DNA of 64,000 bases from an uncultured Chlorobiaceae bacterium (GTDB taxonomy: Bacteria; Bacteroidota; Chlorobiia; Chlorobiales; Chlorobiaceae), in the NCBI GenBank assembly GCA_903895195.1, contig CAITSZ010000047.1:62001-126000 (forward strand), given 5' to 3'. Position numbers and translations under genes: made by a program. The notes beneath the pieces were generated by a model. That model did no database searches. It saw only the letters and a program-made list of their open reading frames with translations, and had not been told where the DNA came from. Of this stretch, positions 5,240-17,243 are shown one piece after another (positions within the stretch are counted from its first letter, which is position 1; each line of letters starts with the position of its first letter).

Positions 5240-7036
5240 TTAACCGTTGCGTTTCTTTTTGTTGCCTGTAAAGAATGCCGTTTCTTTTCCTGCAGGTTTA
5301 AAAGGCTTCTTGAAGCTCTTTTTTATACCGTAAGGTGATGACGGACGCTCCTGCTCTTCCATTTTCGTAAGTCTCAGCTGACGACCACAGACCCTGACCT
5401 TTCTGAGCTCATGGAAGATGTTATCCGGCATTCCCTGAGGAAGTTCAACTGTGCTGTATGCATCGTTGATCGAAATCTGCCCTACCGATTCGGGATCAAG
5501 CCCAACTTCGTTAAGAATAGCGCCAAGAATATTACCGGCTTTCACGCCATCTTTGCTTCCGACCTCAATTCGATACCTTTCCTTACCTTCTTCACCATAG
5601 GTCTCGTCCTTTTTTCTTCTTTTAACCGGGCCGCGCTCTCTGTCAGAAAACCCACGATCTCTGTCAAAACTATCCCTGCTATCTTCACGGGGTCTTGGCT
5701 TTTCAGGCTTGTTGGATAAAAGCAGAGGTGTCTCACCTTGAAGCATCGAGGCTAACGCTGCTGCTGCTTCAATTGTGGGAACATCATGCTCGTGACAGTA
5801 CTGCTCGATAAGGCTGGTGAAAAATCCAAGATCTTCAGCGGCAATGGTATCAGTAATTTTCTGATTGAACTTTGCAACCCTCTTGTTATTGATGATTTCT
5901 GTTGAAGGAAGCTCCATCAATTCAATGCGGCTGTGGGTAGCTCTTTCAATAGCGCTGAGCATATTTTTTTCGCGTGGAGATACAAACAAAATTGCATCGC
6001 CTGCACGTCCTGCACGTCCTGTTCGTCCTATGCGGTGCACGTATGATTCGGTATCGGAAGGAATATCGTAATTGATAACATGGCTGATGCGTTCGACATC
6101 AAGTCCTCGTGCGGCCACGTCGGTAGCAATAACGATGCTCAGTGCTCCATTTTTCAATTGTTCGACAGTGCGCTCACGCTGATTTTGAACCATATCTCCG
6201 TTGAGTGCTGCCGCACCATAACCACGGGCCTGAAGTTTTTCGGCAAGTTCGAGCGTCATTGTTTTTGTACGAACAAAAATAAGCATGCCGTCAAATGGCT
6301 CGACTTCGAGAATTCTTGTCAGGATATCAATTTTGTGACTTCCGCCTACAATCCAGTAACGCTGGCGAATGGTATCTACAGTGGTGGTTTTTGTCTGGAT
6401 GGTAACTTCGGCCGGTTTGTTCAGATACTTTTGCGCAATACGGCGTATTACCGACGGCATTGTTGCGGAGAAAAGAGCAACCTGACGAGTTTTTGGTGTC
6501 TGATCAAGGATCCATTCGACATCGTCGATAAATCCCATGCGAAGCATTTCATCAGCTTCATCCAGAACAAGACATTTCAATGAAGAGAGATTGAGTGATC
6601 CCCGGCGCATATGATCCATCACACGGCCAGGTGTACCGACAACAACATGGACTCCGCGCTTCAACATGCGAAGCTGAATACCGTAATCCTGTCCGCCATA
6701 AATAGGGATGACATGGAAACCCTTGAGATATTCGGCATAACGCTGAAATGCCTCGGCAACCTGTATGGCAAGCTCACGTGTAGGAGCCAGAACAAGAGCC
6801 TGAGGTTCGGCCAGTTCAATATCGATGTTGGAGAGTATCGGCAGGGCAAAAGCTGCGGTTTTTCCTGTACCGGTCTGTGCCTGCCCGAGGACGTCGCGTC
6901 CTTCGAGAATAAGTGGAATTGTCTGAGCCTGAATGGGAGTAGGGTTTTCGTACCCGACTTCTTCAAGTGCTCTCATTATCGGTTCTGCGAGCTGTAGGCT
7001 GCGGAAATCCTGCGGCAATAATTGCTGATCTTTCAT
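5240..7036 (-). CDS. deaD: DEAD-box ATP-dependent RNA helicase, DeaD/CsdA type
   Basis: A 598-residue protein with all DEAD-box motifs in order: Q motif (NPTPIQAQTIP), Walker A AQTGTGKT (~residue 55), PTRELA, TPGR, DEAD, SAT, then in the second RecA lobe VATD-like IATDVAARGLD and HRIGRTGRAG. Residues ~485-560 (RYRIEVGSKDGVKAGNILGAI, ending GRQLRL) are a DbpA/CsdA-type RNA-binding domain. The tail is basic and rich in Lys/Phe. The family unwinds RNA duplexes in ribosome assembly, mRNA turnover and cold adaptation. It is a single transcription unit with its own terminator. Confidence 0.95.
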   Translation of the reverse strand: MKDQQLLPQDFRSLQLAEPIMRALEEVGYENPTPIQAQTIPLILEGRDVLGQAQTGTGKTAAFALPILSNIDIELAEPQALVLAPTRELAIQVAEAFQRYAEYLKGFHVIPIYGGQDYGIQLRMLKRGVHVVVGTPGRVMDHMRRGSLNLSSLKCLVLDEADEMLRMGFIDDVEWILDQTPKTRQVALFSATMPSVIRRIAQKYLNKPAEVTIQTKTTTVDTIRQRYWIVGGSHKIDILTRILEVEPFDGMLIFVRTKTMTLELAEKLQARGYGAAALNGDMVQNQRERTVEQLKNGALSIVIATDVAARGLDVERISHVINYDIPSDTESYVHRIGRTGRAGRAGDAILFVSPREKNMLSAIERATHSRIELMELPSTEIINNKRVAKFNQKITDTIAAEDLGFFTSLIEQYCHEHDVPTIEAAAALASMLQGETPLLLSNKPEKPRPREDSRDSFDRDRGFSDRERGPVKRRKKDETYGEEGKERYRIEVGSKDGVKAGNILGAILNEVGLDPESVGQISINDAYSTVELPQGMPDNIFHELRKVRVCGRQLRLTKMEEQERPSSPYGIKKSFKKPFKPAGKETAFFTGNKKKRNG

Positions 7037-7349
7037 TTGTGTATTCTATTCCAAATCATTGAGTAAAAAGCCTCGTATGAGGCGGGAGTGGCAGCAATGC
7101 AGGAAAGAAAAAAATGAAGAAGAGTTCTCATCAACCGAAAACATCCGGGCAACTTCAGACACAATACCGAGCGCCATCGTTTCGTCACAAACACTGGAAA
7201 TACTCAAGGCCTGTTTGACCTTATAATTCCTGCGTCCTTTCTTAGCATATTCACCACGCATTTAAAACGCCAGCATAGTACGATTTTTTTTTACCAAATA
7301 CGAATTTATTATGCGGTAATTGAACAGGGGGCGGATGTGAAAGAGGATG

Positions 7350-7376
7350 AGATCCCTCGCCAAATGTCGGGATGAC
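7350..7376. repeat. diverged copy of the dispersed 31-bp repeat
   Basis: It shares AGATCCCTC at one end and GTCGGGATGAC-like sequence (7367-7376) at the other with the copies at 1835-1865 and 40820-40850, but the middle differs. It lies in the spacer between divergent deaD and waaA. I see nothing else recognisable in the spacer 7037-7466. Confidence 0.5.
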
Positions 7377-7466
7377 GAAAAAGATGCAAATTGTATAGAA
7401 AAAGTGATTTGATGAGGGGAGTCGGCAAGTGACTTTTTTATTACCTTAAAGCTATTTACCGATGTA

Positions 7467-8759
7467 ATGAGCATGAAACATTTCGTTATGCATAGCTTTG
7501 CCCTTTTTTGCTACTCCCTTCTTTTTCCGTTTTTTCACGGTACTGCAAAATTAATACGACCATTCTCTCCGAAACTTCGAACTTTTTTCGAAGTCAGGAA
7601 GGCCGTGATAGAGAAAGTTGAAAAAAAAATAAGTCAACTTCCATCGCCTGCTTTCAGGGTATGGATACATGCTGCCTCTGTCGGGGAATTCGAGCAGGCT
7701 CGGCCTATAATAGCCGCATTGAAGGAAAAGCGACCGGACATTATCTTTTTTGTCTCTTTTCTTTCGGATTCAGGATACAACGCAAGAAAAAACTTCCCGG
7801 ATGCCGCTGCAGTGTTTTACCTGCCTGTTGATTCACGAGCTAATGCAAAAAAGCTGATATCAGTCCTCAAGCCTGATGTTTTGCTTCTCATGCGCTATGA
7901 CTTCTGGCCGAACCATCTTGTGGAAGCTAAAAAATATGGCACAAAACTGATTCTCGCTGCGGCGGTGCTGCAACAAAACGCTCCGTATTTCAAGCCGGTT
8001 GTGAAACGTTTTTATACAAGCATTTTTCATCTGTTCGATCATATCTATACGGCAGCTTCAAAGGACACCGCTGCGTTCAGGCAGATATTCATGTGCCTGA
8101 ACGCTGAGACTGCAGGCGACCCGCGGTTTGATCAGGTCATACAACGCAGTAAAAACCCGGGGAGGATTGATCACATCAAACCTTTTTTTGAAAACAAGAC
8201 AGTTCTGGTTGCCGGAAGCGTGTGGGATAAAGACAGCGCTCTTCTCCTTTCAGCATGGCAGGAGTTGGCAGTGCGTCCATCGCTTATTCTGGTACCTCAT
8301 CAAGTACACCCTGAAAATATGGCGCGTCTCACCCGGGATCTTCAAACCCGTTCTATCGCGTTTGTGAAGGTTTCAGCTATGACTGAAAAATTTGATCCTG
8401 CACAGGAAGTTCTCGTCATTGACCAGACCGGCTATCTTGTGGAGCTTTATTCAATAGCTTCGATAGCTTATGTCGGTGGAGGATTCGGCGTCAATGTCCA
8501 TAACACGCTTGAGCCGGCGGTCTACGGTATTCCTGTTGTGTTTGGCCCAAACTATCACAACTCTCCTGAAGCAGAAGCTCTTGTTGATGCTGGCGGTGCA
8601 ACAGTCATTTTCGATCAGGCGACACTGTCGGCCACACTGAACGAAATTGTTACCAATGCCACTGAAAGAGCAAAGAGAGGAAAGATCGCTAAAACATTTG
8701 TGGAAGAGAGAACAGGGGCTACGGCAATAATAGCCGACAGTATTATGACACTGCTGTAA
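7467..8759 (+). CDS. waaA: 3-deoxy-D-manno-octulosonic acid (Kdo) transferase
   Basis: A 430-residue membrane-anchored glycosyltransferase that adds Kdo from CMP-Kdo to lipid A precursor, building the lipopolysaccharide inner core. Signs are the N-terminal hydrophobic anchor (residues ~8-25), the family signature VWIHAASVGEFEQARP (~residues 65-80), the catalytic Glu in GEFEQ, the LMRYDFWPN segment (~residues 140-150) and the C-terminal lobe with YVGGGFG and the HNTLEPAVYGIPVVFGPNY donor-binding motif. Its length is typical. ATG 7467 or ATG 7473 could be the start; neither has a clear ribosome binding site. Its presence indicates a Gram-negative envelope. Confidence 0.93.
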   Translation: MSMKHFVMHSFALFCYSLLFPFFHGTAKLIRPFSPKLRTFFEVRKAVIEKVEKKISQLPSPAFRVWIHAASVGEFEQARPIIAALKEKRPDIIFFVSFLSDSGYNARKNFPDAAAVFYLPVDSRANAKKLISVLKPDVLLLMRYDFWPNHLVEAKKYGTKLILAAAVLQQNAPYFKPVVKRFYTSIFHLFDHIYTAASKDTAAFRQIFMCLNAETAGDPRFDQVIQRSKNPGRIDHIKPFFENKTVLVAGSVWDKDSALLLSAWQELAVRPSLILVPHQVHPENMARLTRDLQTRSIAFVKVSAMTEKFDPAQEVLVIDQTGYLVELYSIASIAYVGGGFGVNVHNTLEPAVYGIPVVFGPNYHNSPEAEALVDAGGATVIFDQATLSATLNEIVTNATERAKRGKIAKTFVEERTGATAIIADSIMTLL

Positions 8760-8771
8760 CCCCGGAAGCGC

Positions 8772-9566
8772 TTACGGAACCAAGGAGTCCTTAACTGTTT
8801 TTATCGGTGCAATTTTCGGCAACTGAACAGGGCGCTTGCGATACCTCTTTGACCAACCTTGTATGGTGTATGCCTTAAAGGTCTGCGTCGAAACGACAAC
8901 TCCTGTGATTTTAACCTGTTTTCCGGGAAGAAGCCGGGTGCCGGGACGAATATCTGTATTGTTGATATCAATCTGCCAGATATTTTTATTGAAATCTCTT
9001 ATGACAAGGATCTGCTTCTCCTTCCGGTACTCAATAACCTTCCCGCCAAGCATACCCTTTTCGGCGTGTGTCCAGCGGTGTTCGTTGGCATAAACCAGCT
9101 TGTTATAGACATGTAGATTTTCAATAAGGTACCGATGAATATACTTACCGACATCAATCGTATTCAATCCGACGCTGAGCAAAAGACTTGCGAGCAGAGC
9201 TCCTGCAATAACCTTTGTGGTTGCATAACGATAGCCTGTTTTGGTGTGTCGGAATCCGAAATAGGCGACTATGGTAAAAAGTGCAAGAGTTGCTACCCAT
9301 ACATAGGGTATGCTTGCTACTATTTCGGCAATTAAGGGACGTTCGGCCAAAAACAGGTCGATGTATTGATGATCCTCTATGAAATCATTATCAATGAAAA
9401 CATAAATAGCTGTAGCCATCGCAATACTGCCGGTCAAGACTGAAATTGCAGCAAGAAGCCAGAACCCGAATCGTTGAAGAACGAAGTGCCAGCGAGGAAT
9501 AGGCACTGCATTTCTTTTTTCGATTTCTTCCAGAATTGATTTTGATCTGTCCTTAAGCATAATCAT
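8772..9566 (-). CDS. membrane protein, probable anti-sigma partner of the ECF sigma factor
   Basis: A 264-residue protein encoded 5 bases after the ECF sigma factor stop codon, so almost certainly cotranscribed. It has a cytoplasmic N-terminus of ~35 residues, three hydrophobic segments (residues ~33-55, ~82-100, ~115-135) and a large C-terminal domain. That domain contains beta-rich sequence (KQILVIRDFNKNIWQIDI, PGKQVKITGVVV) like a small OB-fold/barrel. There is no zinc-binding ZAS motif (HxxxCxxC). Position and topology suggest control of the sigma factor by membrane sequestration, which is inference. The C-terminal domain could sense an envelope or redox signal. Confidence 0.65.
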   Translation of the reverse strand: MIMLKDRSKSILEEIEKRNAVPIPRWHFVLQRFGFWLLAAISVLTGSIAMATAIYVFIDNDFIEDHQYIDLFLAERPLIAEIVASIPYVWVATLALFTIVAYFGFRHTKTGYRYATTKVIAGALLASLLLSVGLNTIDVGKYIHRYLIENLHVYNKLVYANEHRWTHAEKGMLGGKVIEYRKEKQILVIRDFNKNIWQIDINNTDIRPGTRLLPGKQVKITGVVVSTQTFKAYTIQGWSKRYRKRPVQLPKIAPIKTVKDSLVP

Positions 9567-9571
9567 GATAT

Positions 9572-10153
9572 CTAACGCCCTTCTAAATAACTTTTAATTT
9601 TTTTCTTGGCACGATTAATCATAGTGGCAACTGTCCCCTCAGGTATCTGTAAAATATCTGATATCTCTTCATAGCGTTTTTCTTCAAAGAATTTCAAAAC
9701 AATGATTTCGCGACTTTTCGGATCAAGCCTGTCAACAGCCGCCTGTATTTCCGATGACGAATGCTTTTGACCATCCCCGTCCGTCAGTTCCAAATTTTCA
9801 ACAACTTTTTCAAAAAGAAATAAATCGCACTCTCTCTCTAATACACTCGGGAGATTCTTTTCCTTTCGAAATGAGCTGATGATTTCATTATGCGCGATGC
9901 GGTATATCCACGATGAAAACTGAAGGGAGTGATCGTAATCATTGAGATGAACGTAGGTTTTGATGAAGATCTCCTGCAGCAGATCCTGCGCCGCAGTGGA
10001 ATCCCTGCATCCCAGTCGGGTTATATATCGTAAAAGAGGAGCTTCGTAGCGACGAACGATTGCAGCAAACGCATTTTTATCAACAAGAGTCTGTGTAACC
10101 AGATCCTGGTCTGTGCATGGATGCTGTTCTTTATGTCGTGAAGTATCGGCCAT
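9572..10153 (-). CDS. ECF-type RNA polymerase sigma factor
   Basis: A 193-residue sigma-70 family protein. Region 2 covers residues ~30-100 (AAQDLLQEIFIKTYVHL, then FSSWIYRIAHNEIISSFRK, the -10 recognition and core-binding helices). Region 4 covers ~138-190 (LDPKSREIIVLKFFEEKRYEEI and IPEGTVATMINRAKKKIK, the -35 HTH). A Ser/Asp-rich linker separates them, with no region 1 or 3, as expected for group 4. AGGA precedes the ATG. The next gene encodes a membrane protein that probably restrains it. The regulon cannot be read from the window. Confidence 0.92.
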   Translation of the reverse strand: MADTSRHKEQHPCTDQDLVTQTLVDKNAFAAIVRRYEAPLLRYITRLGCRDSTAAQDLLQEIFIKTYVHLNDYDHSLQFSSWIYRIAHNEIISSFRKEKNLPSVLERECDLFLFEKVVENLELTDGDGQKHSSSEIQAAVDRLDPKSREIIVLKFFEEKRYEEISDILQIPEGTVATMINRAKKKIKSYLEGR

Positions 10154-10270
10154 ATCCTGGAAAAAAAATCCTGAATGTCAGTGTTATAATCTTTATAGAG
10201 TAAAGCGAAAAGCCTGCAACCCTATATATCTTCGTAAAGGAAGATGACCGGCTCTGTATCCTCTGGACAT

Positions 10271-11521
10271 TTAATCCAGTCGAGGCTTAACTCCTTTAAT
10301 ATCGTGGAAAGAAACAACGCCAAGCAGGTGATCGCTCTCATCGGTTATCGGTACAGCGCGGAATGAGTAACGGAAAAAAATGTCAACAGCATCCTGCAGG
10401 GTTTCATCCGGACTGAGGGTGATGAGGCTGTCGGTCATAATCTCCCCAAGTGTCTGTTCTGGCTCAGCGGCAATAAGCTCGCGTAAATCAACAACTCCCT
10501 GAAGAACATTCTCTTCATTGACAACGTAGACATACATGATGACATCCATGTCGCCGGCAACGTCGCGATAATTGTTAATGACATCACGCACTATGGTCTC
10601 AGGCGGTCGTTTGATAACCTGCTGCGTCGAGTAGAGCATGATGTTTTCATCATTCTGATCAATAATCTGCTGCACTCTCTGCTTGTTTTCACTGTCTACA
10701 AACTCAATAATCTCATCGGCTTCCGAAGCTGGCAGCACTGAAAGAATATCTGCTACCTGAGCAGGACTCATTTCGTTAATCAATTCTGCTGCACGCTCTT
10801 TTTCCATCGAGCGGATAAGCTCTCGCTGCACTCTCGGTTCAACCTCTTCGAGGGTATCTGAAGCCAGTTCCGGTTCTATCTGATTGAATACTGCCATACG
10901 CTGGCTGCCGTCGAGCTCCTCGAGAATATCAGCCAGATCGACCGGGTGAATATCGTTGATATTTTCCTTGAGCACATTGAGCTTGACATTGCCTTCAAAG
11001 CTGCCGATAGTATCAGGCAAAGGCTGCACATAAAGCCAGGATATACTGGATCCCTCTTTGTATTTGGCAAGATAATTGGCAAGCTTTTTAAAGCCCATCC
11101 GGCGGAGAATACGAAAACGGTTGAAATCCACATCAGTGACAAAAAGCCGGTCGTTCTGAAACAGAAGCTTGACATCGTAGACTACTTCAACCTCATGGCC
11201 ATCCATATCAAGTATCTTCTTGTCAAGAATATAGTCTTTCAGGAAAATGTGGTTATCGAGGGGATTGAGTTCGTAGCCTTCGGTGCTGGTGATTTCTGAA
11301 ACAATTTCAGTGTTTGAAATCAGGGTGATTTTATCCCATGGAATCAAAAGACGAGGATCACCATAAGGCTGGTGAACCAGCAGATGGGTAACTTCAGGAA
11401 CCTTACCGGCGTTTTCCTGTATAACAAGATCTTTCAGCTTTCCGACTGAACGTGTTTTCAGATAGATTCGGCGGCCGACAATCTCGCTAAGGTAAAAGTC
11501 ACGATTAAGAACTGTAACCAT
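10271..11521 (-). CDS. soluble MgtE-N/CBS-domain protein with PRC-barrel-like N-terminus
   Basis: 416 residues without membrane segments. Residues ~8-75 look like a PRC barrel (VGRRIYLKTRSVGKLKDLVI), with a second related unit to ~140. Residues ~180-290 carry the MgtE intracellular N domain (HPVDLADILEELDGSQRMAVF, repeated helix pairs with ADILS and ADEIIEFV). Residues ~300-415 are two CBS repeats ending HLLGVVSFHDI. In MgtE channels these domains sense cytosolic Mg2+, but the channel domain is absent. Downstream of the NRAMP-like transporter and the 55-residue peptide in one operon, it most likely gates or senses for that transporter (inference). Confidence 0.85.
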   Translation of the reverse strand: MVTVLNRDFYLSEIVGRRIYLKTRSVGKLKDLVIQENAGKVPEVTHLLVHQPYGDPRLLIPWDKITLISNTEIVSEITSTEGYELNPLDNHIFLKDYILDKKILDMDGHEVEVVYDVKLLFQNDRLFVTDVDFNRFRILRRMGFKKLANYLAKYKEGSSISWLYVQPLPDTIGSFEGNVKLNVLKENINDIHPVDLADILEELDGSQRMAVFNQIEPELASDTLEEVEPRVQRELIRSMEKERAAELINEMSPAQVADILSVLPASEADEIIEFVDSENKQRVQQIIDQNDENIMLYSTQQVIKRPPETIVRDVINNYRDVAGDMDVIMYVYVVNEENVLQGVVDLRELIAAEPEQTLGEIMTDSLITLSPDETLQDAVDIFFRYSFRAVPITDESDHLLGVVSFHDIKGVKPRLD

Positions 11522-11537
11522 GGGCGTGTTTGGGATT

Positions 11538-11705
11538 TTATAAAACCGTGATGAATTTATAGATCATCAATAGCACAAGCACAAAGAGATAAATCCTGAG
11601 AACCGCTAAGGAAAAACTGACGCCTTTTGACATTTCAATTTTTGGTTTGGCATAGCGCTGGTTGATCTCGCGGATCTTGCCGATAAACTGTTTGAGCATC
11701 CTCAT
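11538..11705 (-). CDS. 55-residue single-span membrane peptide in the metal-transport operon
   Basis: A small frame between the NRAMP-like gene and the MgtE/CBS gene. It reads MRMLKQFIGKIREINQRYAK at the N-terminus (basic, amphipathic), then about 20 hydrophobic residues (SLAVLRIYLFVLVLLMIYKF) and a short end. GAGG lies about 12 bases before the ATG. It fills the otherwise empty spacer almost exactly and starts 16 bases after the transporter stop. The basic N-terminus and C-terminal helix predict an N-in membrane peptide, possibly a small subunit or regulator of the transporter. No family is recognised. Confidence 0.6.
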   Translation of the reverse strand: MRMLKQFIGKIREINQRYAKPKIEMSKGVSFSLAVLRIYLFVLVLLMIYKFITVL

Positions 11706-11721
11706 AATCTGACAGCCTCAA

Positions 11722-12990
11722 TTACTTGAAAAGATTAGGGAAAAGCGCACTTATGCCATATAACGTGGAAAGTATGACAATTAGAACAACGATCAAGGTA
11801 CTGACAATATTCTGCAAAGGGGTGTTGGCATACTCCCCCATTGTCTTTTTATCGTTGAGCAGCAATATCAGAAAGACAAGTGCAGCGGGCAGCAACGTCA
11901 CGGCAACGACCTGGACAAAAAGCGTGATGAGCACAAGCGGAGCACCGGGTATCAGAGGAACAACGCCGGCAGTCGCCAGAGTTATAAAAAATGAAATATA
12001 GAACCAGGGGGCTTCCTTGACCTTTGTATTAAGGGAGTGCGCCCATCCGAAAATTTCTCCAAACGCCCAGGAGCTTGCCAGTGAGATGCAGATTGCCCCC
12101 AAGAGGCCGGCATCAAACAGGCCAATAGCCATTAATGCTCCAATATAGTGGTTGGTCTTCATGAGCATTCTGGCTGCGGTGGCGGCATCATCAATTGGTG
12201 CGCCATTGAGGAGTGTCCCGGTTACAATCACGATGAAAATCGCAACAGCCACGGTGATGATGGAGCCGATGAAGGTGTCAAGTTTGCCCATTTTGATGTC
12301 TTTTTCCTGCAAGCCTTTGTCAACAACAGAGCTTTGCTGAAAAAAAAGCATCCACGGGGCAATGGTTGTACCGATATTGGCCATGAGCAGAAAAAACAGC
12401 TCATTATTGAAGCCGCCTGGAAAATTGGGAATCAATCCCTGACCAATGATACTTTCAATGGAAGGGTTAACCATGAATGCTGCAGGAATATAAATCAGGT
12501 TCAGCAAACAAAACCCTAAGGCAATCTTTTCCCATGTCCAGTATCGACCGTTCAAAACGATTATGCTCATCAGAAGCACAACCAGAATCACCGTCAGCCA
12601 GGCAGGAACTCCGAATATGCCGAGCGCTGCAGTCATTCCCACAAATTCCGTGACCAGCGTCAGCCAGTCCACAAACATGAGATCAATAAGCGAGAACCAT
12701 CCCCAGAATGCACCGAAACTCTCAAAAATAGCTTCAGCGTGCCCTCGCTTGGTAACAGCGCCAAGCCGGACAGTCATTTCCTGTACGTAGTAAGCTATGG
12801 GGATAAGAAGGAGGAGAAACCATATCAGGTGATAACCATATCTGGCTCCAGTAGCTGCATAGGTTGTAATGCCTCCGGCATCATTATCGGCAATCATCAC
12901 GACGAGGCCCGGCCCGGCAATAACAAGGTAAAGACGAATCGATTTCCAAACTTTTTTAAACCGGTAGTAGAGAACGGAAAAAAAATCCAT
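11722..12990 (-). CDS. NRAMP-superfamily divalent metal transporter with non-canonical metal site
   Basis: A 422-residue protein with about 11 membrane helices and the SLC11/NRAMP fold. Helix 1 begins GPGLVVMIADNDAGGIT (residues ~26-42); the usual DPGN is DAGG here. Helix 6 has GTTIAPWMLFFQQ where classical Mn/Fe transporters have G-A-T-V-M-P-H-N, so the selectivity methionine is Ala and the His is Trp. Classical family members move Mn2+ or Fe2+ with protons. Loss of the methionine is known in NRAMP-related magnesium transporters, so Mg2+ or broad divalent transport is plausible. First gene of a three-gene unit with the 55-residue peptide and the MgtE/CBS protein. Confidence 0.85.
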   Translation of the reverse strand: MDFFSVLYYRFKKVWKSIRLYLVIAGPGLVVMIADNDAGGITTYAATGARYGYHLIWFLLLLIPIAYYVQEMTVRLGAVTKRGHAEAIFESFGAFWGWFSLIDLMFVDWLTLVTEFVGMTAALGIFGVPAWLTVILVVLLMSIIVLNGRYWTWEKIALGFCLLNLIYIPAAFMVNPSIESIIGQGLIPNFPGGFNNELFFLLMANIGTTIAPWMLFFQQSSVVDKGLQEKDIKMGKLDTFIGSIITVAVAIFIVIVTGTLLNGAPIDDAATAARMLMKTNHYIGALMAIGLFDAGLLGAICISLASSWAFGEIFGWAHSLNTKVKEAPWFYISFFITLATAGVVPLIPGAPLVLITLFVQVVAVTLLPAALVFLILLLNDKKTMGEYANTPLQNIVSTLIVVLIVILSTLYGISALFPNLFK

Positions 12991-13311
12991 ATCCGTTGAG
13001 TTGGACGTTGACGAAACCCGGCATTGCTATTAAGAAGGAAAGGAAAGGCATCGAACTCACAGGTGTTCATACTCACCATTCGATCAGGCGCAAATTTACA
13101 ACACTATGTTCACTTTACAAAGTCGTTTTGACAATCTCTGCAAGAGGCTCCAGTGAAGGAATACCATATATGAGGTATTTTTTGAAATTCACTTGCAACC
13201 TCTTAATATATTGATCTTTATAGCTAATCAGGATATATCAGGTCAGACATTTTATAATGTACACCTCATTTTTCATATAAAACACTCAAGTAAACAAAGG
13301 GCAACATATTC

Positions 13312-14529
13312 ATGCCAGTACCGGTAACTTCGAATCGCGCTTTTCTCAAGCTGTTATCTTTCAGGATTTTAATTGTACTTGCCTATCAGATTATGGCGAT
13401 TGTTGTGGGCTGGCATATCTATGAGCTGACTCATGACACCCTCGCACTTGGTTTGATTGGACTTGCCGAGGTCATACCGTACTTTTCGTGCGCGCTCTTC
13501 GCGGGCCATGCGATAGACCACTATTCCCGACGATTGTTCGGGGTGGCCGCCTGCTTGATGTTAGTTCTCAATTCGCTGACTCTGACTGCTGTATCGGCAG
13601 GCTGGATAAGCGGCAATCCTTCTTTATGGATATACGGTTCTATTGCTGTTGGCGGAGTGGCACGTGCATTTATCGGTCCATCTTACAGCGCCATGTTTGC
13701 ACTGATCTTACCACGCGATCACTACGCCCGGGCCTCGGGAATCGGCAGTTCTGTATTTCAGTTGGGATTGGTGACAGGACCCGCCTTTGGGGGGATTCTG
13801 GTTGGACTGGCAGGAAAAACAACTGCCTATAGTGTTGCAACCGCCCTATGCCTTGCCGCTGCATTAATGCTGCTCTCTATCCGCATAGAGGAACCACCGT
13901 CAGCAGAGAGTACACCGATTTTCACCAGCATTGCCGGAGGGTTGCGCTTTGTGTTCAGCAATCAGATCATTCTGGGCGCTCAGTCTATGGATATGTTTGC
14001 AGTGCTTTTCGGGGGAGCTGTTTCCATGTTGCCTGCCTTCATTCATGATGTCTTTCACTACGGACCTGAAGGGCTTGGAGTGCTTCGTGCAGCTCCGGCA
14101 ATAGGTGGTTTGATAACCGGGTTATTTCTCTCTCGCCACCCGATCAATCTCCATGCCGGGAAATGGCTGCTGGCGGCTGTCGCCGGTTTCGGTATCTGTA
14201 TTATTTCCTTTGCAGTATCAACGAACATATGGATTGCGGGCCTGCTTTTACTGTTTTCGGGGGTTTGCGATGGGGTATCGGTGGTCATGCGTACAACCAT
14301 CATGCAACTATTGACTCCCGACGCCCTGCGTGGCCGGGTTTCGGCCATAAACGGCATTTTTATTGGCTCATCTAACGAACTTGGCGCTTTTGAGTCAGGC
14401 TTTGCGGCCCGGTTGATGGGACTTATACCGTCGGTAATTTTTGGAGGAATAATGACGCTGACGGTTGTAGGTGCAACGGCAAAACTGGCACCGAAACTGC
14501 GCCGCCTTGAACTGCACCAACTCTATTGA
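13312..14529 (+). CDS. MFS exporter, EntS-like (MFS_3) family
   Basis: A 405-residue protein with twelve hydrophobic segments. Major facilitator features include the loop-2 motif GHAIDHYSRRLFGV (residues ~65-78; the family has G-x-x-x-D-R-x-x-R-R) and a related repeat in the C-terminal half (LLTPDALRGRVSAING). The layout matches the MFS_3/enterobactin-exporter-like clade that exports siderophores and other small molecules. There are no siderophore genes nearby, so the substrate is unknown. The spacer 12991-13311 contains a TATAAT at 13253-13258 but no convincing -35 box, and nothing else I recognise. Confidence 0.85.
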   Translation: MPVPVTSNRAFLKLLSFRILIVLAYQIMAIVVGWHIYELTHDTLALGLIGLAEVIPYFSCALFAGHAIDHYSRRLFGVAACLMLVLNSLTLTAVSAGWISGNPSLWIYGSIAVGGVARAFIGPSYSAMFALILPRDHYARASGIGSSVFQLGLVTGPAFGGILVGLAGKTTAYSVATALCLAAALMLLSIRIEEPPSAESTPIFTSIAGGLRFVFSNQIILGAQSMDMFAVLFGGAVSMLPAFIHDVFHYGPEGLGVLRAAPAIGGLITGLFLSRHPINLHAGKWLLAAVAGFGICIISFAVSTNIWIAGLLLLFSGVCDGVSVVMRTTIMQLLTPDALRGRVSAINGIFIGSSNELGAFESGFAARLMGLIPSVIFGGIMTLTVVGATAKLAPKLRRLELHQLY

Positions 14530-14559
14530 CCAAAACAACATGTTATTTTTCGGGAAGAG

Positions 14560-15642
14560 TTAATCTCGCTCATTGAATTGATTTTTTAACTTTTCCCAGT
14601 ATGGATCATCAGGATTTTCAGCTGCCAGGCTTTCAAGAGCCGATGTATAAATTGAGGTGATGATAAACTGCCGGATATTTCCCTTCGATTTGATAAAGCC
14701 GCTCTCTTCCATGGTTTTCCAAAAAAGCTCAATGCCTTTTACATTAGGATCAGAACTCTGATCAACATTACCGCTGTAATAGGCTTTTTCAACCATGGCC
14801 GGATCAATTTTCAGGTACTTCTGAATAATTGAGATGGTTTCACCTCTATTCTCCTGCTGTTGAGTGAACCTTTCAGCGCGAAGAATCGCTCTGATAAAAC
14901 GCGGCCATACTGTAGCATATTTTTTCTGATCAAGAGTATTAATAGTTATCCTGCAGCAGGGGTGGCCCGGCTCGAGATCCTGTGAACGGGCAATAATTTT
15001 CAATCCCATCTCCTCTGCCTCTATATCGTGAGGACCCCACACAACTCCTGCATCAACCATGCCTGACTGGACTGCCTGTAAAATACCTGCAGGGTTTTTC
15101 AGTTCAAAGATCTGCAGGTCTTTGCGCCATTCAAGACCGGCTCGATGCAGCGCCCCGCGAAGAACGGCATCACCAGTAGCCAGGCGAACAGTAGCTACCT
15201 TTTTGCCTTTAAGGTCTTTAACCGACTTGATGATTTCCGCATTTTCATGTGAAGTAATCAGTGCGACATCCCCGCCCATAATACCGCCGATTATACGGAG
15301 GTTAGCTCCATTTGCTATATGAAAGAGGGGCGATGTGGTACCGAATGCTCCGATATCAAGCGCATTTGAACGAAGAGCCCTTATACCTTCATCCGAATTT
15401 ACAAACTGAATCAATTCAACGTTCAAACCTTCCTGGTCAAAGAAGCCCTTATCTTTTGCCACAAAAAACTTTGCATGACCTGTGACAGGCAGATACCCCA
15501 CTTTAAACGGAATCTTCGGCGAAAGTGGCGGATAGATAGCTGCATGCACATCTGAACAAATAAGCATGGCTATACCTGCCATAATGCACAGGGCTTTTCG
15601 AAACTGCAAACGAAGAAGAGAAGGAAACAGCATGTCCATCAC
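14560..15642 (-). CDS. ABC transporter solute-binding protein, NitT/TauT/SsuA type (orphan)
   Basis: A 360-residue secreted protein with an N-terminal signal sequence ending near VHAA (residue ~35). The mature N-terminus (PFKVGYLPVTGHAKFFVAKD, then KGFFDQEGLNVELIQF) is the classic start of the NMT1/SsuA-like periplasmic binding proteins, followed by ALDIGAFGT and DLKGKKVATV. The family binds nitrate, sulfonates, taurine, thiamine precursors and related molecules. No permease or ATPase gene is adjacent: the neighbours are a convergent MFS gene and a divergent DUF486 gene. It may act with components encoded elsewhere. Ligand unknown. Confidence 0.85.
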   Translation of the reverse strand: MMDMLFPSLLRLQFRKALCIMAGIAMLICSDVHAAIYPPLSPKIPFKVGYLPVTGHAKFFVAKDKGFFDQEGLNVELIQFVNSDEGIRALRSNALDIGAFGTTSPLFHIANGANLRIIGGIMGGDVALITSHENAEIIKSVKDLKGKKVATVRLATGDAVLRGALHRAGLEWRKDLQIFELKNPAGILQAVQSGMVDAGVVWGPHDIEAEEMGLKIIARSQDLEPGHPCCRITINTLDQKKYATVWPRFIRAILRAERFTQQQENRGETISIIQKYLKIDPAMVEKAYYSGNVDQSSDPNVKGIELFWKTMEESGFIKSKGNIRQFIITSIYTSALESLAAENPDDPYWEKLKNQFNERD

Positions 15643-15863
15643 GGTAACTATTAGCGAGATTCAGGAAGAGAAACTTTTGTGAACTGGGCAGAATTGAAGC
15701 GCCAAAACAAAGAAGTCTCTTCACTTAGAAGAAGGTAAAAAAAGGGATTACGCAACCGTAAAAGAGTTATTGATTAAAAAATAATACATTTTGTCCAATT
15801 TACCGATAACACAGTATTTCTACACAGAAACAATTATTCAATTCTTCATCGGAAGTGCCTGCT

Positions 15864-16193
15864 ATGAAAACAATCTTTCTTTTACTTGCTTCTAATATTT
15901 TTATGACTTTTGCCTGGTATGGCCATTTAAAATCCATGCAAAACAAACCGCTTATTGTGGCTATTCTCTTCAGCTGGGGACTGGCTCTTTTTGAATATGC
16001 ACTTCAAGTTCCGGCTAATCGAATCGGTTATCATACCTTCAGTTTAGGCCAATTGAAAATCATTCAGGAAATTATCACCATGTTCGTCTTTGCCGGATTT
16101 GCTTATTGGTATATGGAAAAGCCTCTGAGTTGGAATTACCTCTATGCCGGATTATGCATGGTTGGAGCTGCCTTTTTTATTTTTCGTGATTGA
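15864..16193 (+). CDS. DUF486 (DMT-superfamily-like) membrane protein
   Basis: 109 residues from ATG 15864, chosen over a GTG nine bases upstream because GGAAG sits 8 bases before this ATG and overlaps the GTG. Four hydrophobic segments fit a small four-helix membrane protein. The sequence FMTFAWYGHLK near the start, FEYALQVPANRIGY in the middle and the final Y-x-x-A-G-L-C-M-V-G-A-A-F-F-I-F are hallmarks of DUF486, a conserved family related to the drug/metabolite transporter superfamily. Function unproven. It stands alone, about 100 bases upstream of cysK. Confidence 0.85.
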   Translation: MKTIFLLLASNIFMTFAWYGHLKSMQNKPLIVAILFSWGLALFEYALQVPANRIGYHTFSLGQLKIIQEIITMFVFAGFAYWYMEKPLSWNYLYAGLCMVGAAFFIFRD

Positions 16194-16289
16194 GAATGTT
16201 TCTATCGCTTCCTGTATTCCATAAATACATGAGCAATTGTTATTATTTAGAAAAAAATTGTCAAACAAACTATTGAGCAATAAGCAGAC

Positions 16290-17243
16290 ATGAAACGTAT
16301 CGCTAAGAAGCTTACCGAACTTATCGGTAACACCCCGTTGCTTGAACTTCAGAATTTCAATCAATTGCATAAAACATTGGCCACTATTATCGTGAAGCTT
16401 GAGTACTTCAACCCAGGCGGAAGTGTCAAGGACCGTATAGGGTTTGCAATGATTGAGGATGCGGAAAAGAAGGGGTTACTTAATAAAGAGAGTGTCATCA
16501 TTGAACCGACCAGCGGCAACACCGGTATTGCACTTGCATATATTGCGGCGGCAAAAGGATACCGCCTGATACTCACTATGCCTGAAACCATGAGTATAGA
16601 GCGAAGAAATCTGCTCAAAGCGCTTGGAGCCGAGTTAGTGCTGACAGCAGGCTCGGAGGGAATGAGTGGCGCAATAAAAAAAGCTGATGTACTCCATGCT
16701 CAAATTATAAACTCATTTATTCCGCAACAGTTTAAAAACCCCGCAAATCCGGAGATCCACCGATCAACAACTGCTGAGGAGATATGGAACGATACGGAGG
16801 GAATGGTTGATATATTTGTCAGCGGTGTAGGAACAGGCGGGACAATAACCGGTGTCGGGGAGGTACTCAAAGGGAGAAATCCTGAGATACAAATCGTGGC
16901 TGTTGAGCCATTTGATTCACCTGTTATTTCAGGTGGACAACCAGGGCCCCATAAAATACAGGGTATAGGTCCCGGATTTATTCCGGAAATTCTGAACACA
17001 GAAATAATTGACGACATCATTCTCGTAAAGAATGAAAATGCCATGCGCACCAGCCGCGAACTGGCCAGAAGTGAAGGGCTTATTGTCGGCATCTCTTCGG
17101 GAGCTGCAGTATATGCTGCCTTGCAGCTTGCACAGCAGGAGGAGAATGCGGGAAAACGCATTGTGGTTATCCTGCCGGATACAGGGGAACGATACCTGTC
17201 AACCATGCTTTTCCAGTTTGATGATGAGCTCTTAAATATGTAA
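16290..17243 (+). CDS. cysK: cysteine synthase (O-acetylserine sulfhydrylase)
   Basis: A 317-residue PLP enzyme that makes L-cysteine from O-acetylserine and sulfide. Key features: the start with [11 protein letters not shown]; the PLP lysine in NPGGSVKDR (Lys47); the substrate loop [11 protein letters not shown] (~residues 70-80); the phosphate-binding loop [10 protein letters not shown] (~residues 177-186); and the C-terminal GISSGAA with the active-site serine. Length and motifs fit CysK rather than cystathionine beta-synthase, which is longer. In a sulfide-oxidising phototroph it would fix sulfide directly into cysteine. It is followed by genes for a DUF4293 protein and pdxA, the latter a PLP-synthesis enzyme. 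Confidence 0.94.

Follow-up and report, generated by a model that had tools for sequence, protein, structure and literature searches.

What is the function of a 55-codon reading frame that fills the gap between a metal transporter gene and a putative metal sensor gene? The question arises from the window analysed here, a stretch of 64,000 nucleotides from an uncultured Chlorobiaceae bacterium, in which three genes follow one another on the minus strand with 16 nt between each neighbour pair: the NRMT-type transporter P0002 (422 aa, 11722..12990), the small membrane protein P0001 (55 aa, 11538..11705) and the PRC-MgtE_N-CBS-CBS protein P0003 (416 aa, 10271..11521). The initial annotation of this DNA had placed a 55-residue frame between transporter and sensor, and this was borne out exactly, the frame running from ATG to stop over 11538-11705(-). 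Size alone is uninformative for such a frame, since 100 ORFs of at least 30 aa overlap positions 7000-16500, and it is conservation that decides. P0003 led to 47 loci, 41 of which have the small frame in the same position; in the remaining six (L067, L069, L070, L074-L076) the contig begins at or within the MgtE gene. In other words, the small gene is present in 41/41 related loci whose contig extends that far. Among 61 related genomes there are 20 carriers (E ≤2.3e-20, 21 loci), all of which also have the transporter (at least 90% identity) and a full or contig-broken MgtE/CBS gene, so that the annotated company of a conserved membrane peptide, an NRAMP variant and an MgtE/CBS gene in Chlorobium holds in 20/20 cases. 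One more genome beyond these carriers, G016, shows just a 54-residue piece of MgtE, at the end of a contig. One Chlorobium genome (G003) contains two complete cassettes, on contigs C7 and C8, with a small gene in each.

The median pairwise dN/dS of the small frame is 0.097 for 39 distinct Chlorobium sequences (690 usable and non-independent pairs, 48 of them with saturated dS), and the variable columns at codon positions 1, 2 and 3 are 24, 13 and 46 of 48. The two alternative frames give ratios above 1 and are interrupted by stops in 39/39 and 33/39 sequences. The small frame is under strong purifying selection. The objection foreseen in the initial annotation, an unconserved frame with equal synonymous and non-synonymous change, fails because the frame is under this selection and is always found with the transporter and MgtE/CBS genes in Chlorobium. 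A chance ORF is ruled out by the dN/dS and the synteny, and an RNA element rather than a protein by the codon-position pattern and the lack of an Rfam match, as neither an M-box nor any other Rfam element was detected in 9500-13600 with E up to 1. The 55-codon frame is a real gene. A scan of 10100-13350 for promoter-like and terminator-like signals gave 5 and 4 sites, which is not above chance, as shuffled sequences have 5.6 and 3.0. The 16-nt spacer upstream of the small gene (11706..11721, minus strand) contains GAGG, a likely ribosome binding site, as had been anticipated. The 63 loci with a tblastn match overlap between searches and reduce to 42 distinct DNA stretches; a GAGG, AGGA, GGAG or AAGG tetramer is located at most 25 nt upstream of the small frame in 39 of these (a raw count without background). 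Over the same 42 stretches the distance from transporter stop to peptide is 7-32 (median 17) and that from peptide stop to MgtE gene 11-25 (median 14.5).

AlphaFold2 predicts two helices for P0001, at residues 2-19 and 27-54 (mean pLDDT 85), in agreement with the amphipathic-plus-hydrophobic design read earlier from the letters. Codons 2-19 (11649..11702, minus strand) would form an amphipathic, positively charged cytosolic helix with a KIREIN motif, as judged from the AlphaFold2 helix and the charge bias, and codons 27-54 (11544..11627, minus strand) a TM helix with the pattern LRxYL...K, in which the Arg is Arg37 (11595..11597, minus strand). The flanking proteins are easier to assign. P0002 matches Pfam Nramp (3.1e-77) and carries the NRMT signature of DxxG on TM1 and TxxA/T on TM6 (PMC8806188, in its available part), here as DNDAGG and GTTIAPWM. 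Its closest solved relative is EleNRMT (7qia, E 1.8e-67), followed by MntH (7e-16). P0003 contains MgtE_N (2.1e-23), CBS (7e-16) and PRC (1.3e-6) domains according to Pfam, and is 98% identical to its counterpart in the nearest named locus, that of Chlorobium sp. isolate L227-2013-22; the genome is of Chlorobium type. Its match to the MgtE structure 2yvx ends at residue 273/473, before the membrane part, and 2yvy was also matched. P0003 is thus a neighbour homologous to the cytosolic N domain of MgtE and devoid of a TM domain, as in NrmT operons, and is a putative cytosolic Mg2+/Mn2+ sensor.

The key to the small protein lies in longer NRMTs. These have about 90-100 extra C-terminal residues, comprising a further TM helix, a linker with a WRMPP-like end and a last TM helix. 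The last TM carries LRxYL, with a Lys or Arg 13 residues past the Arg in 17/18, and P0001 shows matching features with LRIYL and Lys50. Fused NRMTs are encoded in proteobacterial genomes and on plasmids of Burkholderia, Paraburkholderia, Rhodococcus, Streptomyces, Mycolicibacterium, Cellulomonas, Pseudarthrobacter, Methylobacterium, Mesorhizobium and Alicyclobacillus, and the helix is within one chain in 18/18 long NRMTs sampled. When 17 small proteins (profile A4) were compared with 18 fused C-termini (profile A3) using hhalign, a probability of 92.9 and an E of 3.7e-7 were obtained with LR on LR, for an alignment of only about 33 hydrophobic residues. Against the transporter core the E values were 0.022 for A3 and 0.56 for A4. 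Profile A3, built from fused proteins only, was then searched in 23 whole genomes, 14 with a separate gene and 9 controls. The small gene was the top match in seven of the 14 carriers, with E from 8e-5 to 0.08 (G003 8.1e-5, G480 1.7e-4, G563 4.2e-4, G590 8.3e-4, G000 9.5e-4, G005 1.2e-3, G029 0.077), and was missed in the other seven (G061, G062, G578, G507, G559, G433, G478). The best E in the nine controls was 0.33. The G029 match is weak by itself, because the best unrelated match in all 23 genomes, found in a carrier, reached 0.18. Profile A4 was searched in 21 genomes and retrieved the separate genes of G433 and G478 (1.3e-3), each as top match; the peptides of G507 and G559 were already part of A4. 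In seven fused genomes it had the fused helix as top match in three (G756 0.035, G735 0.069, G604 0.70) and missed it in four.

Scoring with a fused-only HMM separates the small proteins from decoys. The 55 distinct small proteins have a median of 21.9 bits, with 51 at 10 bits or more, compared with -0.7 for reversed sequences, -0.3 (maximum 12.4) for 550 shuffles keeping the TM composition, and a median of -1.2 (maximum 14.2) for 1782 other TM-bearing frames of the loci collected. The lowest small-protein scores are those of L123 (1.2), L144 (2.0), L143 (3.8) and L122 (9.8). Most of the 55 are close Chlorobium relatives and should therefore not be counted as 55 independent proofs. The motif [LM]RxY occurs in 53/55 small proteins, 18/18 fused proteins and 33/1782 other TM frames. 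A search of the small-protein profile against PDB chains gave no match. These sequence comparisons lend good support to P0001 being a transporter helix that can be detached, encoded here by a gene of its own and in longer NRMTs as their C-terminal helix. The protein had been called unannotatable, which stands insofar as no Pfam or NCBIfam family matched P0001 or those relatives that were tried, and does not stand insofar as it can be placed beside the fused helix. Since other bacteria carry this membrane helix as the terminal part of the transporter chain, P0001 is probably a missing transporter subunit.

The history of the transporters points in the same direction. In a tree of 63 transporter cores, from which the C-terminal extensions had been removed, a single branch (support 94/87, present in 96% of bootstrap trees) sets apart the 41 helix-bearing rows (18 fused, 23 separate), and P0002 lies on the same side of it as the fused NRMTs. 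The 22 rows without helix fall outside, namely 10 of an AxxM outgroup, six MgtE-first NRMTs from Bacteroidota and six DPSG-type paralogues. Within the sampled branch, every transporter (41/41) has the helix, either separate or fused. Since all helix-bearing transporters share one branch, a single gain of the helix with later fission or fusion, in either direction, would be the simplest account. An earlier tree with extensions partly included recovered the same groups. The canonical Nramp loci L105 and L106 were omitted from the second tree for their long branches, L099 yielded no row, and L227, L232, L241-L245 and most near-identical Chlorobium loci are outside the tree. The inner branch order should not be over-read, given the long branches of L123 and L150/L153. 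EleNRMT, placed by a quick method, is outside the helix-bearing branch and nearest to the MgtE-first group. Sampling of NRMTs covered Pseudomonadota, Bacteroidota/Chlorobi and plasmids, and a PF01566 search returned only control names.

Five columns are invariant in the 41 and have a residue absent from all 22, i.e. G97, D103, T111, P169 and A363; private columns of this kind are expected on any single long branch. Three of the five are in the stretch before Glu115 of TM3, and D103 alone is charged. This Asp103 (12682..12684, minus strand), described as intramembrane, is found in 41/41 transporters with helix and 0/22 without. The AlphaFold2 model of the transporter is of poor quality, with a mean pLDDT of 41. 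Several further Nramp types were met. Loci L154-L161, L135 and L236 constitute a separate Nramp-like clade with DTDAGS-type and AVIMPW motifs, a site unlike that of both NRMT and canonical Nramp, and with neither helix nor small gene. Chlorobium paralogues (L108, on contig C34 of G000, and L100-L104) with D[DN]DPSG and GTTISPY represent another non-canonical type. Six Bacteroidota NRMTs (L234, L235, L237-L240), nearest to EleNRMT, lack both the small gene and the extension and have their MgtE-like gene upstream.

Could the resemblance between P0001 and the fused C-termini be convergence of unrelated hydrophobic helices, the small gene having some unrelated role? The shortness and hydrophobicity of the matched stretch would allow it, as would the half of the whole-genome tests that missed. 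However, reversed and shuffled sequences and the 1782 other TM frames score far lower, LRxY and the K/R at +13 share the same offset in both forms, and all helix bearers are on one branch of a tree built from cores only, which makes convergence a most improbable explanation. Granting homology, P0001 could still be a transporter-specific factor for assembly, insertion or protection from proteases, with no role in the working complex. This would fit a small TM protein that is always encoded beside its transporter, but the fused forms of other bacteria, in which the helix belongs to the mature transporter, imply that it stays, and we regard such a factor as very unlikely.

Alternatively, P0001 could be a conditional regulator akin to MntS, MgtS or MgtR, which would inhibit, stabilise or destabilise the transporter when needed instead of being a permanent subunit. 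This has better precedent, as many bacterial TM proteins of 30-60 aa are described as acting in this way on metal transporters (PMC10710835, PMC4361602, in their available parts). Such a regulator would be expected under separate control, whereas the small gene is part of the transporter operon, with short gaps to its neighbours, and the helix is part of the chain in all long NRMTs sampled and never absent from the sampled branch. This explanation thus appears unlikely. With a probability of roughly three in four, we favour P0001 as a stoichiometric accessory subunit of one NRMT branch, a detached extra C-terminal TM helix that would probably couple the transporter core to P0003.

How might such a subunit work? 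We infer its topology, its binding, an Arg-Asp contact, the role of the MgtE-like protein and the transported ion. The P0001 helix would span the membrane once with a cytosolic N-terminus. In 52/55 distinct small proteins the part preceding the TM has a higher net charge than the part following it, and it is this positive bias, together with the positive-inside rule, that suggests the orientation. The fused linker before the last helix is likewise net positive in 16/18 and zero in 2/18. With 11 TM helices and its N-terminus in the cytosol, an Nramp core has its C-terminus outside. A fused helix entering from the cytosol would therefore need one returning helix first, and a separate gene would need none; fused forms do show one more hydrophobic segment before the last helix. 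The TM helix of P0001 would pack against the core of the transporter, likely along TM3 and perhaps via Arg37 and Asp103. As D103 is the sole charged private column and Arg37 the one nearly invariant charge in the cytosolic half of the helix, we guess that these two residues make the docking contact. Such a bridge would not be universal, because the small proteins of L143 and L144 have LAWY in place of LRxY and yet their transporters keep Asp103.

On the cytosolic side, the amphipathic helix of P0001 would probably link the transporter core with P0003, and P0003 in turn would signal the cytosolic level of Mg2+ or Mn2+. By eye, a REIN/RAIN segment before the TM helix is present in separate peptides directly preceding a PRC-MgtE-CBS gene and absent from fused and MgtE-less forms. 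This association counts as one event, because it is confined to one clade; the segment may dock the MgtE-like sensor, and the three products may form a physical complex. We can take this further, although only tentatively and with more doubt than belief: a whole branch of the Nramp superfamily may have an obligate helix, either in the chain or encoded separately and held by the intramembrane Arg-Asp pair on TM3, and in the separate form the amphipathic helix may act in place of the connecting (plug) helix of MgtE, a free-standing MgtE-type sensor thereby gating the transporter. If true, the gating part of a channel family would have been placed on an unrelated Nramp-fold carrier. We know of no earlier sensor-plus-adaptor system for an Nramp-fold protein, and this would then be the first.

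The cassette is not confined to Chlorobium. A second genus of Chlorobiaceae and a further Bacteroidota genome have the same gene order (L226-L230), as do proteobacterial genomes with peptides 47-65% identical (L072, L139-L142, and L071, identical with L138). Loci L143 and L144 have a more divergent version, in which the transporter is at 59%. Two conjugative IncHI plasmids, NZ_LR881935.1 of Citrobacter freundii (132038-142175, L117) and CP068396.1 of Serratia marcescens (280593-290730, L118), have the same cassette, adjoining an ArsR-type regulator gene and a heavy-metal P-type ATPase gene. This suggests mobile spread, perhaps in a context of metal stress. The current annotation of both plasmids includes the transporter and CBS genes and omits the small gene, according to a PLSDB gene table that declares itself incomplete. 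A third order, transporter-MgtE-peptide, occurs in three Bacteroidota loci (L231, L232, L233; transporter 57-58%), in which transporter and MgtE gene are too close to leave space for the peptide, which comes after the MgtE gene instead. Loci L122, L123, L150 and L153 have an NRMT with an unlinked small gene directly downstream and no MgtE gene in the stretch examined. In L153 (about 2760-2950) the downstream small frame lacks ATG, GTG or TTG at the expected start, possibly due to a CTG start or translational coupling. A class-wide profile search for the small gene matched 3/369 genomes, of which the query genome alone is a true match, with E 0.009 over 19-22 positions for the other two; searched viral contigs gave no match.

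The pair formed by an NRMT and an MgtE fragment has been known since Shin et al. 2014 (PMC4072509), who named NrmT, so that the unit is not as undescribed as the initial annotation supposed; its third gene appears new. No mention of a small gene was found in the available part of Shin et al. 2014 (PMC4072509), nor, among titles and abstract openings in a literature search lying mostly outside subscription journals, any description of an NRMT small subunit or C-terminal helix. According to the accessible text of that study, NRMTs are a fourth class of bacterial Mg2+ importers, members from C. acetobutylicum give Mg2+ rescue, and most members of the group adjoin an MgtE-N-like gene. The present locus has the same transporter type and the same kind of neighbour, homologous to the MgtE N-terminal domain. 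It differs from the M-box-controlled NrmT operon, which has this riboswitch upstream, by the absence of an M-box in 9500-13600. Gene order distinguishes it from the A. capsulatum operon, the MgtE-like gene coming before the transporter there and after transporter and peptide here. Since that study found the A. capsulatum member to act as a Mn2+ transporter, the ion of P0002 should not be fixed as Mg2+. The job of the NRMT-associated MgtE-like gene has been a standing question since 2014.

EleNRMT (7qia/7qic/7qji/7qjj, PMC8806188, as far as the available text goes) shares the DNDAGG / GTTIAPWM site with P0002 and transports Mg2+ and Mn2+. Unlike P0002 it is a 438-residue chain without extra helix, outside the helix-bearing branch, so transport by itself does not require the helix. 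If an overlooked third subunit is real for the helix-bearing branch, expression and structure work on a bare transporter from it would deal with an incomplete complex. The fused NRMTs, such as those of Burkholderia, Rhodococcus, Streptomyces and Alicyclobacillus, are about 530-560 aa in length and carry the annotation 'NRAMP family divalent metal transporter'. They have the homologous helix as last TM and differ from P0002/P0001 in being one chain instead of two and in lacking the KIREIN segment. Separate and fused forms thus provide a ready-made comparison of the same helix in one chain or two. AcrZ, MgtS and MntS (PMC10710835, PMC4361602) and the small subunits KdpF and CydX (PMC10903887) are likewise, in the available parts of these papers, single short TM helices that associate with a larger membrane protein. 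They have other partners and no family match to P0001, for which, in addition, a fused counterpart exists.
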